Of a stretch of DNA of 64,000 bases, positions 57,164-62,761 are shown piece by piece. Below the pieces are notes generated by a model that did not search any database, had not been told where the DNA came from, and saw nothing but the letters and a program-made list of their open reading frames with translations. The translations under genes and the position numbers were made by a program. Source of the stretch: an uncultured Ruminococcus sp. (GTDB lineage Bacteria; Bacillota; Clostridia; Oscillospirales; Ruminococcaceae); NCBI GenBank assembly GCA_944386525.1, contig CALXBL010000002.1, positions 1-64,000 of the forward strand, in the 5' to 3' direction. Every line of letters begins with the position of its first letter. Positions within the stretch are counted from its first letter, which is position 1.

Positions 57164-57703
57164 ATGAAGGCTACAGGAATCGTAAGACGCATCGACGATT
57201 TGGGTCGTGTTGTAATTCCTAAGGAGATCCGCAGAACAATGCGTATCCGTGAGGGCGATCCTCTTGAGATTTATACCAGCAGCGATGGCGAAGTCATATT
57301 TAAGAAGTATTCTCCCATAGGCGAGATAAGTGAAAATGCAGCTCAGGTTGCCGACATAATGCATAGGCTCTCGGGGTGTCCGGTGGCGGTTTTTGACCGT
57401 GACCACGTGGTATCCATTTCGGGTGCAGCTAAAAAGGAGTGGAATGCAAGGCGGGTATCTCCGGAGCTGGAGGAGCTTATGGAAAACAGAAAGCAATATT
57501 ATTCCGACAGCGGCAGAGGATTGTTTATGCCTGCCGAGGGTGTTGATAAGAATGCGGTTGCGTGTCTGCCGATCATTTCCGCAGGAGATGTTACCGGAGC
57601 TGTGGTTTTTCTCGAAAACGGTACGGATTCCAAACTGAGTGAAAGCCAGAGATCACTCATACAGGCGGCGTCCCAGTTCCTTGGAAAACAGATTGAGCTT
57701 TGA
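57164..57703 (+). CDS. spoVT: Stage V sporulation protein T
   Basis: Forespore DNA-binding regulator. The 179-residue protein has an AbrB-type swapped-hairpin domain (about 1-53, MKATGIVRRIDDLGRVVIPK) and a C-terminal GAF-like ligand domain (about 60-179, with VAVFDRDHVVSISG). This two-domain layout separates SpoVT from AbrB and Abh. Shine-Dalgarno ACGGAGG. It is monocistronic, with a candidate sigma-G promoter before it and a terminator after it. Confidence 0.93.
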   Translation: MKATGIVRRIDDLGRVVIPKEIRRTMRIREGDPLEIYTSSDGEVIFKKYSPIGEISENAAQVADIMHRLSGCPVAVFDRDHVVSISGAAKKEWNARRVSPELEELMENRKQYYSDSGRGLFMPAEGVDKNAVACLPIISAGDVTGAVVFLENGTDSKLSESQRSLIQAASQFLGKQIEL

Positions 57704-57715
57704 ATAAATACTGAA

Positions 57716-57745
57716 AGGACTGCTGCATTGCGGCAGTTCTTTTTG
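57716..57745 (+). terminator. Terminator of spoVT
   Basis: AGGACTGC / GCAGTTCT stem (one G-U pair), 9-base loop and a run of Ts. It separates spoVT from the next operon. Confidence 0.88.
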
Positions 57746-57775
57746 TCATATGCTTTTAGTTGTGCGCATATAAAT
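57746..57775 (+). promoter_or_regulatory. Candidate sigma-E promoter of the signal-less peptidoglycan-binding operon
   Basis: TCATATG (57746-57752), 14-base spacer, CATATAAAT (57767-57775). The mother-cell sigma-E consensus is KMATATT, 14-15 bases, CATACAHT: six of seven and six of eight positions match. It immediately follows the spoVT terminator and precedes a good Shine-Dalgarno. No sigma-A promoter is seen here. Confidence 0.4.
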
Positions 57776-57806
57776 ACAAACAACAGAAGTTTTTTGGAGG
57801 TATTAT

Positions 57807-58472
57807 ATGGCAGTTAAAACTCCCGATGATTATATGAGAGAAATGATGGAAATGCACCGGCGTTCAAGTGCATCGGCGGAGCATACTCCTAAGCCTGAGC
57901 CAATGACAAGACCTGAGTCTGAACCAAGACCAGAGCCAGCGCCAAGACCAGAGCCTGCGCCGAGACCAGAGCCTGCGCCGAGACCAGAGCCTGCGCCGAG
58001 ACCAGAGCCTGCGCCAAGACCAGAGCCTGCACCAAGACCCGAGCCTGCGCCAAGACCAGAGCCTGCACCCGAACCAGAGGCGGTTATTATAACTCCTGAC
58101 GCAACTCCGGATGAGACATCTTTTGGATGGCTTCAGGTGACGGCAAGAGCAGCGTCACAGGCGCAGCCTCTTGAGGGCGTTGTGGTGCACATAACAAAGG
58201 GCGATGACCTGCTGTATACGCTCACCACTGATAAGAGCGGTACTGCTCCTAAGGTTAAGCTTCCGGCACCTGCTATAACTAATACGCCTGTTCAGCCGTT
58301 CAGCATATATAATGTGACAGCATATCTGGAGGGCTACTCCAGGCTGAAAAGTCAGGCTGTACCGGTATTTTCAGGAATTACAACGATCCAGCCGTTTACT
58401 ATGATCCCGCTTGCAAAAGGAGCAGATCCGGACAAAGTTATCATAAACGAAAATACAGAGCCTGAATTTTAA
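57807..58472 (+). CDS. Proline-rich PRPEPA-repeat protein, function unknown
   Basis: A 221-residue protein with no signal peptide: a charged N-terminus (1-38), eight PRPEPA hexapeptides (about 40-87) that should be extended and disordered, then a beta-rich domain (about 100-215) with [24 protein letters not shown] and [10 protein letters not shown]. That pattern resembles carboxypeptidase-regulatory-like domains that carry short prefix strands. Function not known. It heads a three-gene run with the SpoIID-like and peptidoglycan-binding genes, 12 bases before the next; Shine-Dalgarno TGGAGGT. Confidence 0.75.
57924..58067 (+). repeat. Eight tandem 18-base units coding PRPEPA
   Basis: Eight in-frame units of the form CCAAGACCAGAGCCTGCG, nearly identical in DNA with only third-position and few other changes, so the array is recent or actively homogenised. 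It lies wholly inside the preceding CDS and is not a CRISPR array. Confidence 0.95.
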
Positions 58473-58484
58473 GGAGGTGACAAG

Positions 58485-59894
58485 ATGCCAATAGGAGAAC
58501 CATACGTTCCTGAAACTATTACAGTGCATCTGGGAAGTCTCGACAGCGACGCTGAAAACGTGACTCTGCCCTTTCCCGACTACATAAAAAACGTTGCGTC
58601 GAGTGAGATTTATCCTACATGGCCGGAGGCTGCACTGCGTGCAAATATATATGCAATAGTGAGCGTTGCCCTCAACCGTATATATACCGAATGGTACAGG
58701 GTAAGGGGATATGACTTTGACATTACGGATTCAACGCAGTACGATCAGAAATTCATCAAGGATAGACAGATATTTGAAAATATCTCCCAGATAGTAGACG
58801 AGATATTCGACGACTATGTTCGCCGGCAGGGTTCTGTAGAGCCGCTGTTTACGCAATTCTGCAACGGTACTACAGTTACCTGCGATGGTATGTCCCAATG
58901 GGGCACAGTGGAGCTGGCTGAACAGGGAATGACGCCCTATGAGATACTCCAGTATTATTACGGAGACGATATAGAGATCGTGAGGAATGCTCCGATCCGC
59001 ACGGGTACACCATCATATCCGGGTTTCCCCATATCACTTGGATACGTGGGCAACGAGGCCCGCACCATACAGATACAGCTGAACCGTATTGCAAGGAATT
59101 ATCCTGCCATACCTAAAATTGGCGACGTAAGCGGAGATTTTGACTACGCCACAGAAGAGGCTGTCCGTGCCTTTCAGGAGATATTTAATCTGCCTGTAAC
59201 CGGAGTTGTGGATAAGGCTACTTGGAATAAGATTGCCTATATTTATCTTAGCGTAAAGAAACTGGCGGAGCTTGACTCAGAGGGACTTCGTGCTGAGGAG
59301 GCAGAAAAACAGTTTACCGAGACACTGGAAGTTGGTATGCAGGGTAAGCAGGTAAGGGGGCTGCAATATTATCTGGCAGTTATAGGCGCATATTATGAGG
59401 AAGTTATGCCAGTGGAGATTACAGGTTACTTTGGAACAGAGACCGAGAATTCAGTGAAATCATTCCAGCGTGTGTTCGGACTGCCCGAGACCGGCATTGT
59501 AGACATAAATACTGCAAGAGATCTCTACAGAGCATATTTCGGCATACTCGACAGTCTGCCGCCGCCTGATCCTGAGGTGGGAAATGTAGTGCTTTTTCCG
59601 GGCGTTGTGCTGCGTGAGGGGGCAAGCGGAGAATATGTCAAGATACTGCAGACATACCTTAGTTATATTCACCAGACCTTTCCCGAGATAAACGATGTAA
59701 CTCCCACAGGCTACTTCGGACCTATGACAAAAGCAGCAGTAACATCGTTTCAGAAACTTTTTGGTATGCCTGAAAACGGCGTTGTAAGTCTTGCCGTGTG
59801 GGATAAGATAACTGAGATATATTCCGACCTGAGATTCGGCATGGATAAACGCCCATACCAGTCACCGGGCTATACGATATCCGGAGATTCATAA
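58485..59894 (+). CDS. SpoIID/LytB-like domain with three peptidoglycan-binding domains, no signal peptide
   Basis: A 469-residue protein. The N-terminal half (about 1-165) follows the SpoIID/LytB amidase-enhancer pattern: IYPTWPEAALRANIYAIVSV (with a Glu just before it, the likely catalytic position), CDGMSQWGTVELAEQGMTPY and EILQYYYGDDIEIV. Then come three PG_binding_1-type repeats (about 190-255, 285-350, 380-445), each with YFG...VKSFQRVFGLP-type motifs. SpoIID is a lytic transglycosylase of engulfment. Unlike it, this protein shows no signal peptide or membrane helix, so its compartment is puzzling. Confidence 0.8.
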   Translation: MPIGEPYVPETITVHLGSLDSDAENVTLPFPDYIKNVASSEIYPTWPEAALRANIYAIVSVALNRIYTEWYRVRGYDFDITDSTQYDQKFIKDRQIFENISQIVDEIFDDYVRRQGSVEPLFTQFCNGTTVTCDGMSQWGTVELAEQGMTPYEILQYYYGDDIEIVRNAPIRTGTPSYPGFPISLGYVGNEARTIQIQLNRIARNYPAIPKIGDVSGDFDYATEEAVRAFQEIFNLPVTGVVDKATWNKIAYIYLSVKKLAELDSEGLRAEEAEKQFTETLEVGMQGKQVRGLQYYLAVIGAYYEEVMPVEITGYFGTETENSVKSFQRVFGLPETGIVDINTARDLYRAYFGILDSLPPPDPEVGNVVLFPGVVLREGASGEYVKILQTYLSYIHQTFPEINDVTPTGYFGPMTKAAVTSFQKLFGMPENGVVSLAVWDKITEIYSDLRFGMDKRPYQSPGYTISGDS

Positions 59895-59908
59895 GGAGGT
59901 ATCATCAT

Positions 59909-60412
59909 ATGGCATACACACAGGAACAGCAGCGTGAGCATATAAGAGAGCTTCAGAAGATGCTCTACGAGCTGTCTTTTATTGATGACAGAATTCCAGT
60001 GATAATACCCGACGGCATATATGACAGGGAGACAGCTCAGGCTGTAAAGACCTTTCAGCAGCTATACGGACTCCGTCCCACCGGAGAGGTCAATCATGCT
60101 TCGTGGGAACTCATTGCGGCAGAGCACTTTGATAAGGTGGGCAGCACTCCTGTAAGGCTCGATATTTTTCCTAAGGACAGAATATATATATCCAAAGGAG
60201 ACAGAGGTCTTGAGGTCTACGCCGTACAGGCACTTCTTGCAGTTCTTGCAGAGGCTTTTGGTAATTTTGCCGCACCCCTTGTAACGGGCATATACGACGA
60301 CGAGACAGAACGTGCTGTCGGAGCATTTCAGAACATAGGTCTTATTCCCGTTACAGGCAGCACCGACAGGGAGACATGGAATCTTCTTGCTGCTGCCGTG
60401 GGAAATGTATAA
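59909..60412 (+). CDS. Protein with two peptidoglycan-binding domains, no signal peptide
   Basis: A 167-residue protein of two PG_binding_1-type domains (about 5-75 and 90-165): DGIYDRETAQAVKTFQQLYG and GIYDDETERAVGAFQNIG are the repeated halves, each ending in a TW motif. There is no signal peptide, catalytic domain or membrane helix. It lies 14 bases after the SpoIID-like gene with Shine-Dalgarno AAGGAGG, and a terminator follows. It may be an adaptor that places the other two products on peptidoglycan (inference). Confidence 0.8.
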   Translation: MAYTQEQQREHIRELQKMLYELSFIDDRIPVIIPDGIYDRETAQAVKTFQQLYGLRPTGEVNHASWELIAAEHFDKVGSTPVRLDIFPKDRIYISKGDRGLEVYAVQALLAVLAEAFGNFAAPLVTGIYDDETERAVGAFQNIGLIPVTGSTDRETWNLLAAAVGNV

Positions 60413-60433: not shown

Positions 60434-60466
60434 GCTGTGCCTATAGGCGCAGCCTTTCTTTTTTTG
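60434..60466 (+). terminator. Terminator of the peptidoglycan-binding operon
   Basis: GCTGTGCC / GGCGCAGC stem (one G-U pair), TATA loop, then a long T run. Confidence 0.92.
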
Positions 60467-60515: not shown

Positions 60516-60550
60516 ACAAATGATACTATTGAGAAAAAGGAGGTACTGTG

Positions 60551-61138
60551 ATGACTAACAGAGAGAAATTTATAAGTATATACGAGGAGAATATAAAGCG
60601 TCCGGGCAGTGATAAGCTGCTTAGCTGGATATGCTCCGATAGCAGTGATTTTTTTACTGCTCCATCAAGCACACGCTACCACGGCTCGTATGAGGGCGGA
60701 CTCCTTGAGCACAGCCTTAATGTGTATGAGTGCCTGAAGGACTACCTTTCAAGACCACGCACCAAGGAGCTTTACGGCATGGATTATTCTGATGAATCTA
60801 TAGCAATAGCTGCACTGCTTCACGATCTTTGTAAGGTGAATTTCTATGCTGTAGATTATCGCAATGCTAAAAACGCTCAGGGAGTTTGGGAAAAAGTGCC
60901 CTACTATACAATAAGGGACGAGTTGCCGTATGGTCATGGTGAAAAGTCGGTCTATATAATATCCGGCTTTATGAGACTTACCCGTGAGGAGGCGTTTGCT
61001 ATACGCTACCATATGGGCTTTTCAGGAAATGAAGACAAAAATCTTGTGGGTCAGGCTCTTGAAAAATTTCCGCTTGCACTTGCTCTCAACGTTGCCGACA
61101 TGGAGGCAGCATATTTTATGGAGGGCAGCAATAAGTAA
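60551..61138 (+). CDS. HD-domain hydrolase
   Basis: A 195-residue metal-dependent phosphohydrolase of the HD fold: GLLEHSLNVYECL (His), IAALLHDLCKVNFY (HD) and IRYHMGF towards the C-terminus. Similar Firmicutes proteins are annotated as HD hydrolases with unknown substrate; the fold often acts on nucleotides or phosphoesters. ATG 60551 gives better spacing from AAAGGAGG than the GTG one codon earlier. It is probably the first gene of an operon with the GH13, HAD and methyltransferase genes. Confidence 0.85.
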   Translation: MTNREKFISIYEENIKRPGSDKLLSWICSDSSDFFTAPSSTRYHGSYEGGLLEHSLNVYECLKDYLSRPRTKELYGMDYSDESIAIAALLHDLCKVNFYAVDYRNAKNAQGVWEKVPYYTIRDELPYGHGEKSVYIISGFMRLTREEAFAIRYHMGFSGNEDKNLVGQALEKFPLALALNVADMEAAYFMEGSNK

Positions 61139-61174
61139 CACAATATCAACAATAAACACACGGAGGTAAATATA

Positions 61175-62761
61175 ATGCATTGGTACGACAACGCTATAAT
61201 GTATCACATATATCCGCTTGGGTTCTGCGGAGCACCTAAATACAACGAGGGCGGAGATGTTGTAAACCGCCTTGAAAAGGTGAGAGAGTGGATCCCTCAT
61301 TTGAAGGAGATGCAGGTTGACGCTGTATATTTCGGACCGGTATTTGAATCCGCTGAGCATGGCTACGACACTACCGACTACAAGCTGATAGACCGCCGCC
61401 TTGGTACAAATCAGCTTTTCAAGGAAATATGCGGCGAGCTTCACGAAAACGGAATACGTGTTATACTTGACGGCGTTTTCAATCATGTTGGCAGAAACTT
61501 CTGGGCTTTCAGGGATGTTCAGGAAAAGGGACAGGCTTCTGCGTACTGCAATTGGTTTGCAGGACTCAATTTCGGCGGAAACAGTCCATGCGGCGATCCT
61601 TTCTGGTACGAGGGCTGGAATGGTTTCTATAATCTGGTGAAGCTCAATCTCCACAATCAGGACGTGTGCAGCCACCTGCTGGACGCTGTCGGCTACTGGA
61701 TGGATGAATTCAAGATAGATGGTATCCGCTTCGATGCTGCTGATTGTGTGGATTTCGGATTCTTCCGTCAGATACGCAATTTCTGCAAGAGCAGAAACCC
61801 TGAGTTCTGGCTTATGGGCGAGATAATCCACGGCGACTATAACCGCTGGGCAAATCCAGAGATGCTTGACAGCGTTACCAACTATGAGTGTCATAAGGGA
61901 ATCTACTCCTCTCACAACGACAAAAACTACTGGGAGATTAACTATTCCATCAATCGACAGTTCGGCAACGGCGGCATCTATAAGGGCTTGCAGCTCTATA
62001 ATTTCGTCGACAACCACGACGTAGACCGCCTTGCAAGCAAGCTGACGGATAAGAGAAACTTAAAGCTCTGCTATACGCTGCTGTATGCAATGCCAGGTAT
62101 ACCATCTGTTTACTATGGCAGTGAGTACGGTGTTGAGGGCAGACATGAAAACAACTCCGATGATGGTCTCAGACCGTGCCTTGATCTTGCAGAGCTTGAG
62201 AAAACAGGCGACACTGAGCTTTATCGTCATATAGTAAAGCTGGGTAGAATATACCGTGCATATCCGGAGCTGAGAACAGGCGTTTATGAGACTATCCAGG
62301 TACAGAACAAGCAGCTCCTTTTTAAGAGGGAACTGGATGGCAGATGCGTATATGTTGCTCTGAATATCGACGACAACAGCACATGGTTCAACTTCCGTTC
62401 CAACTGTCCGAGCCTTGTCGATGTTATATCAGGTCAGCCGGTAGCCGTAAATGACGGCAGCGCTTCATTTGAACTGAAGCCATATACAAGCATGATACTC
62501 GTTGAGGACGATATTGTAAACGGCACAGAAGCTCCCGAAGCTGCACCGGTTGAGACAGTACAGGAGATGACTGTTGAGGTCGGCGCAAATTATCGCCACT
62601 ACAAGGGCGGAGAGTATCAGGTGACTGCACTTGCACAGCACACCGAAACAAACGAAGAACTTGTAATATATAGGAGCCTCAGTGACGGAAAGGTATGGGC
62701 AAGACCCAAGACTATCTTCACCGGCGAGGTAAACGGCAGAAAGCGATTCGAGAGGATGTAA
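61175..62761 (+). CDS. Cytoplasmic GH13 alpha-amylase-family enzyme fused to DUF1653
   Basis: A 528-residue protein without signal peptide, so acting inside the cell on maltodextrins or similar glucans. GH13 regions are clear: I DGVFNHV (99-105), II GIRFDAAD (Asp187 nucleophile), III MGEIIHG (Glu216 acid/base), IV FVDNHDV (stabilising Asp). The barrel and C-terminal beta domain end near residue 445. A short linker rich in Ala/Pro/Glu leads to a DUF1653-type domain at 470-528 (NYRHYKGGEYQV, HTETNEELVIYRSL, WARPKTIF, RFERM). The exact glycosidase specificity is not certain. Confidence 0.9.
   Translation: MHWYDNAIMYHIYPLGFCGAPKYNEGGDVVNRLEKVREWIPHLKEMQVDAVYFGPVFESAEHGYDTTDYKLIDRRLGTNQLFKEICGELHENGIRVILDGVFNHVGRNFWAFRDVQEKGQASAYCNWFAGLNFGGNSPCGDPFWYEGWNGFYNLVKLNLHNQDVCSHLLDAVGYWMDEFKIDGIRFDAADCVDFGFFRQIRNFCKSRNPEFWLMGEIIHGDYNRWANPEMLDSVTNYECHKGIYSSHNDKNYWEINYSINRQFGNGGIYKGLQLYNFVDNHDVDRLASKLTDKRNLKLCYTLLYAMPGIPSVYYGSEYGVEGRHENNSDDGLRPCLDLAELEKTGDTELYRHIVKLGRIYRAYPELRTGVYETIQVQNKQLLFKRELDGRCVYVALNIDDNSTWFNFRSNCPSLVDVISGQPVAVNDGSASFELKPYTSMILVEDDIVNGTEAPEAAPVETVQEMTVEVGANYRHYKGGEYQVTALAQHTETNEELVIYRSLSDGKVWARPKTIFTGEVNGRKRFERM

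Follow-up and report, generated by a model that had tools for sequence, protein, structure and literature searches.

What could be the function of three adjacent genes whose products carry cell wall-associated domains and no recognisable export signal? This question is raised by positions 57746-60412 of the stretch of DNA analysed here (the window, 64,000 nucleotides (nt); contig CALXBL010000002.1 of an uncultured Ruminococcus sp., positions 1-64,000). A preliminary description had reported a protein with PRPEPA repeats and a beta domain, a SpoIID-like protein with three peptidoglycan (PG)-binding domains and a protein with two such domains, and had stated that no system like this trio was known. 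A Pfam search confirmed the three genes and their domains. The claim of novelty did not hold, since the first two open reading frames (ORF1 and ORF2, Table 1), judged by sequence and modelled fold, are the two halves of a SleC/SleC2-type cortex-lytic enzyme, extended by extra PG-binding domains.

Identity of ORF1 and ORF2

ORF2 gave a match to PF08486 (SpoIID; 2.8e-5, over the curated cut-off) and to three PF01471 domains (1.9e-46), and ORF3 matched two PF01471 domains (2.2e-24). Residues 4-264 of ORF2 were aligned without large gaps with residues 215-477 of C. difficile SleC in its zymogen form (PDB 9h68; E=4.4e-74), and the best four fold matches of an ORF2 model of moderate confidence (pLDDT 75) were all chains of 9h68 (E 9e-23, 49% identity over 257 residues). 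A catalytic glutamate had been expected, and the predicted one, Glu41, lies in the SpoIID motif in a column that was invariant in the orthologue alignments; the SpoIID protein of the same genome carries the corresponding motif, and E101 of C. difficile SpoIID is catalytic (PMC6221140). By score ORF2 is not the SpoIID engulfment enzyme (30 bits against TIGR02870, cut-off 235). SpoIID shares with ORF2 the PF08486 family and the glutamate motif, but it lacks PG-binding domains and carries a hydrophobic segment at its N-terminus. The window genome also encodes a conventional SpoIID with this hydrophobic segment (L001, C4), and a second SpoIID/LytB-domain protein with its motifs in permuted order (L002, C77). 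Hydrolase_2, the catalytic domain of SleB and CwlJ, was absent from ORF2 in the domain search; SleB does share PG_binding_1 with it, and the role predicted for the trio, cortex hydrolysis at germination, is that of SleB and CwlJ.

The beta domain of ORF1 gave sub-threshold Pfam matches only. Its model was of high quality (pLDDT 91.6), and here too the best four fold matches in PDB were 9h68 chains (E 5e-9, TMq 0.75); a weak but colinear sequence match to residues 61-167 of 9h68 was also obtained (E=0.07). Matches of full-length ORF1 to MCT8 and other PDB entries were low-complexity matches to the PRPEPA repeat and were discarded. In addition, a single chain of the phage protein family phrog_28785 covers the end of ORF1 and the start of ORF2, and fused ORF1-ORF2 homologues are present within the same bacterial family. 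It is because of the sequence and fold matches to 9h68, and because phrog_28785 and the fused relatives join both halves, that we read ORF1 and ORF2 as a split SleC. In front of the beta domain, an N-terminal motif of the xEKYKxEMMKLYxRS type occurs in 48 of 66 ORF1 orthologues (3.0±1.7 in shuffles) and is followed by a linker that varies greatly in length and also in sequence, and is often rich in proline and glutamate (P/E-rich); the PRPEPA repeat is a local version of this linker. The ORF1 N-termini of L140, L142, L163 and L168 have, in place of the EKYKxEMMKLY helix, a cysteine motif of the approximate form CxxGCxxCPRRxxC, which may bind a metal or form a disulfide.

The position of the split is also informative. 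In the canonical SleC proteins of the family (L055-L058, 411-421 aa), a segment of about 30-50 residues, KIPEEEVK...GFVVLPRPVVPETIVVHGG, links the N-terminal domain to the enzyme. At the split loci ORF1 stops soon after the beta domain, this pro-linker is missing, and ORF2 in most cases starts 3-8 residues before the equivalent of IPETITVHLG. We take this to be the region in which mature C. perfringens SleC starts, so that the gene fission falls roughly at the place where proteolysis yields the mature enzyme.

A tree of the SleC catalytic domain plus first PG-binding domain separated the Csp-linked SleC proteins, including that of C. difficile, from a second clade (100/100). All 57 split rows formed one group within the second clade (99/97), with the fused 'SleC2'-like forms outside it, so that a single fission accounts for all of them. 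Gene neighbourhoods bore out the conservation of the trio: of 80 named loci, 79 have ORF1 and ORF2 as two distinct adjacent genes, the contig being cut in the remaining one, and ORF3 adjoins them in 51. All three genes are present in R. flavefaciens XPD3002 (L104). The split form reaches Sedimentibacter (L170) and Butyricicoccus-like (L159) genomes. In Sedimentibacter saalensis DSM 13558, which lies outside Oscillospirales, two tandem copies of ORF2 stand between ORF1 and ORF3.

In the preliminary description the lack of a signal peptide or membrane helix in wall-active proteins was seen as unusual. Nothing resembling either was found in ORF1-3 (KD19 maxima of -1.2, 0.4 and 0.7 in the first 50 residues), nor did any of the 205 orthologous ORFs exceed 1.6 in that stretch. 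Canonical SleC relatives adjoining Csp genes likewise had no N-terminal signal-like segment, and the trait therefore belongs to the whole SleC family.

The trio thus has the beta domain, the SpoIID/LytB domain and the following PG-binding domain of SleC (C. difficile CD0551/9h68; C. perfringens), as well as its lack of a signal-like N-terminus and its sporulation-restricted distribution. SleC is, however, one protein of about 410-480 aa from which the pre and pro parts are cut off by YabG and Csp, whereas in the trio a separate gene encodes the N-terminal domain, there is no pro-linker, ORF2 has two additional PG-binding domains, ORF3 is added, and neither Csp nor YabG was found in the window genome. 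The catalytic and PG-binding homology to SleC is hence not accompanied by a single chain, by Csp linkage or by a place in the Csp-linked clade, of which the trio's clade is the sister. C. difficile SleC is processed by YabG and activated by CspB (PMC10681294, PMC3567191). SleC2a and SleC2b of C. botulinum Group II (about 698-792 aa; SpoIID/LytB with 4-5 PG-binding domains) coexist with SleC, and their function is untested (PMC5083711). Going by the published domain description, their content equals that of ORF1, ORF2 and ORF3 joined (3 + 2 PG-binding domains), but each is one fused gene beside SleC-Csp, and the fused homologues of 590-1140 aa in the Ruminococcus family resemble this form. In the non-subscription literature we found no paper describing the split arrangement, nor one on the 9h68 structure.

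Distribution in relation to sporulation, SleB and Csp

We surveyed 119 genomes of the family; the main tests were restricted to genomes at least 90% complete, fused, split and canonical forms were counted together as SleC-type, and the counts are not independent. SpoIVA was detected in 102 of the 119, GerA in 107 (window genome included) and a SleC-type catalytic gene in 65. Among the near-complete genomes, a SleC-type gene was present in 50 of 82 with SpoIVA and in none of 8 without it (p=1e-3), which supports the sporulation link that had been proposed for the trio. Two incomplete assemblies without SpoIVA (55% and 86% complete) do carry a SleC-type gene.

SleC-type genes and true SleB were nearly exclusive of each other: in the SpoIVA-positive set, 44 genomes had the SleC type only, 28 SleB only, 6 both and 4 neither (odds ratio 0.02, p=4e-12). 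On the SpoIVA tree a minimum of 20 changes was counted for each trait, and the independent pairs ran in the opposite direction in 5.2 cases against 0.1 on average (6 supported pairs, median p 0.06). The split arrangement is widespread in gut spore-formers without SleB, and a large part of one family is suggested to replace SleB by a Csp-free, often split SleC-type system.

No Peptidase_S8 subtilase, Hydrolase_2 (SleB/CwlJ) or YabG was detected in the window genome (G000; 1.85 Mb in 102 contigs, about 92% complete; nearest named relatives Ruminococcus and R. flavefaciens). YabG has been called a genomic signature for endosporulation. It was found in none of the 119 family genomes, 102 of them SpoIVA-positive, while the same search did pick up the B. 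subtilis control. Across the family, SleC-type genes and Peptidase_S8 showed no correlation (p ~0.8); many of the subtilases are large, with frames of about 1000-2200 aa. Genuine Csp genes do occur beside canonical SleC, as a pair in G053 (matches to the CspB prodomain and CspBA models) and as CspB at L055, and G061 and G066 have S8 pairs similar to Csp in this position. A possible alternative activator is a small protease resembling subtilases (365-385 aa, no CspB prodomain), whose gene immediately precedes a fused SleC-type gene in two genomes, at L052:8139-9293(-) and L061:1347-2441(+).

Proposed role in germination and alternatives

Spore germination has been modelled on Bacillus (SleB/CwlJ) and on C. 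difficile and C. perfringens (Csp-SleC), while that of commensal gut spore-formers such as Ruminococcus is largely unstudied. We think that the trio is probably a split SleC2-type cortex-lytic system for germination, made in the mother cell. That it fills the niche of SleB or SleC is the simplest reading because of its restriction to SpoIVA-positive genomes, the near-exclusion of SleB and the lack of detectable SleB, CwlJ, Csp and YabG in the window genome; its enzymatic activity, location in the spore and timing are inferred from homology. The three soluble proteins would be made by the mother cell during sporulation from a sigma-E or sigma-K promoter and would become lodged in the cortex/coat layers; C. 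difficile SleC was found in cortex/coat extracts (PMC10681294). ORF2 would be a SpoIID-fold lytic transglycosylase acting through Glu41 and held on cortex peptidoglycan by its three PG-binding domains, with ORF3 as an accessory binder carrying two. ORF1, as counterpart of the N-terminal pre/pro domain of C. difficile SleC, would act on ORF2 in trans as a chaperone, an inhibitor or both, and a germination signal via GerA-type receptors would lead to release or activation of ORF2 and to hydrolysis of the cortex, a task performed elsewhere by SleB/CwlJ or Csp-activated SleC. The wall-remodelling or coat-linked complex imagined in the preliminary description was thus right as to action on the wall, but a better interpretation seems to be an enzyme that is kept in the cortex/coat layers and breaks down the cortex at germination.

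The comparison suggests that the ORF2 enzyme does not depend for its control on a Csp protease of the kind present in C. difficile. A trans-acting role of ORF1 as chaperone or inhibitor, with its release as the switch, is speculative. Tentatively, and with more doubt than for the system as a whole, a zymogen may have become a two-protein system, in which the prodomain was freed by one fission and lysis starts when the partner dissociates or is displaced, rather than through Csp proteolysis. If true, such a dissociation switch would be a third control mode besides SleB/CwlJ and Csp-SleC in much of the gut Oscillospirales, and the trio offers a defined set of proteins for asking how a cortex hydrolase stays silent in the dormant spore without a protease switch.

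The promoter evidence agrees in part with the sigma-E-like promoter, with mismatches, claimed earlier. Upstream of ORF1 orthologues a sigma-E-like box was found in 13 of 48 cases, compared with 7 of 124 control genes of equal GC content (p=2.5e-4). Scans with the sigma-70, sigma-G and sigma-K consensus upstream of ORF1 in the window gave nothing better than shuffles. As far as the box sequence indicates, the promoter class of the trio is sigma-E-like, sigma-E and sigma-K being indistinguishable from it. In C. difficile, sleC belongs to the sigma-K regulon and csp to the sigma-E regulon (PMC3789822).

Several observations weigh against a split germination system in the window genome. Taken singly, the box in the window is weak (P ~0.07 in shuffles), and the absence of other cortex-lytic genes falls short of proof given the incomplete assembly. 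The SleC-type gene may do another job in the six near-complete genomes that also have SleB, and the test of independent pairs is no more than suggestive because resolution of the SpoIVA tree is poor. The one congener sampled (L036, G027) has broken reading frames in ORF2 and ORF3, owing either to an assembly error or to real decay. Finally, fused SleC-type homologues also occur without Csp, so independence from Csp cannot be put down to the split; the enzyme's release from Csp control and the fission of its gene are therefore two distinct steps.

A different use of the same enzyme, as a SleC-derived spore-envelope or mother-cell-lysis factor that remodels the cortex or wall in maturation or lyses the mother cell while other hydrolases serve germination, would fit the coexistence of fused SleC2 with SleC in C. 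botulinum Group II (PMC5083711), the six double genomes and the work of SpoIID relatives in engulfment. It is unlikely in view of the near-exclusive distribution with SleB, the lack of another recognised SleB, CwlJ or SleC in the window genome and the presence there of a separate engulfment SpoIID. Within the germination system, ORF1 might be a scaffold and not a regulator. In that case its helix and P/E-rich linker would tether the complex to the outer forespore membrane or the coat, and the SleC-like domain would do no more than dock ORF2. The common N-terminal motif followed by so variable a linker, and the loss of any pro-peptide that could be cleaved, speak for this possibility, which we nevertheless regard as doubtful. 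According to a title cited in PMC3567191, the prepeptide of C. perfringens SleC is reportedly needed to obtain active enzyme from the precursor, which argues for a folding or inhibitory role of the ORF1 domain; the two roles are not mutually exclusive.

Descent of the trio from a phage or prophage lysis module with endolysin-like PG-binding proteins could be suspected from the PHROG matches, which include endolysin families as well as phrog_23452/28785, and from the occurrence of sporulation genes in gut phages (PMC10294663). The endolysin matches are, however, confined to the PG-binding domains, the trio sits on the chromosome among housekeeping genes, most SpoIVA-positive genomes of the family have a SleC-type gene, and its gene-tree clade has a deep chromosomal spread, all of which make a phage origin very improbable. 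Even less credible is a sequencing or annotation artefact dividing one fused gene. In the window ORF1 and ORF2 do share a reading frame, with a gap of 12 nt, but a GGAGG-type ribosome-binding site stands in front of each of the three ORFs, including the ATG of ORF2, and across the loci where the two genes are separate their spacing and frame differ between genomes, short overlaps included.

Features of the locus and its surroundings

ORF1-ORF3 (57807-60412) form a three-gene operon with a terminator on either side (Table 1).

Table 1. Positions of the predicted features of the trio locus in the window
Feature	Position	Strand	Remarks
Intrinsic terminator of upstream spoVT-like gene	57722..57737	+	57708-57746 fold -20.1 kcal/mol, z -6.3
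Sigma-E/K-type promoter-like site	57746..57774	+	TCATATG-N14-CATATAAA, 3 mismatches of 15 to KMATATT/CATACAHT
ORF1	57807..58472	+	221 aa; SleC pre/pro domain as a protein of its own, with N-terminal helix motif, P/E-rich linker and beta domain
N-terminal motif of ORF1	57816..57866	+	xEKYKxEMMKLYxRS-type conserved motif
18-bp tandem repeat, about 9 copies	57907..58066	+	encodes PRPEPA linker of ORF1
Beta domain of ORF1	58125..58412	+	residues 107-202; corresponds to the SleC N-terminal domain
ORF2	58485..59894	+	469 aa; SleC catalytic (SpoIID/LytB) domain and three PG_binding_1 domains
SpoIID/LytB catalytic domain of ORF2	58563..58796	+	residues 27-104, Pfam match
Glu41 codon of ORF2	58605..58607	+	predicted catalytic acid; SSEIYPTWPEAALRANI, matching AEMP...EALKAQAVA of SpoIID
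PG_binding_1 no. 1 of ORF2	59049..59234	+	the one in common with canonical SleC
PG_binding_1 no. 2 of ORF2	59328..59534	+	borders approximate
PG_binding_1 no. 3 of ORF2	59598..59813	+	borders approximate
ORF3	59909..60412	+	167 aa; two PG_binding_1 domains, no catalytic domain
Intrinsic terminator behind ORF3	60434..60453	+	operon end; fold z -4.1

The position of the trio directly after spoVT had been taken as a hint of its use in the mother cell or in spore morphogenesis. We rejected this argument because a terminator intervenes and the adjacency was seen in 1 of 80 loci. The upstream regulator itself (57164-57703) is spoVT-like, with a clear SpoVT_C match (2e-35) and 193.8 bits against the NCBIfam SpoVT equivalog, which is below the cut-off of 235.9. 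The HD-domain and amylase-like genes 3' of the trio (60548-62761) adjoin the trio in G019 as well (L034:2699-4967), but in none of the other loci examined.

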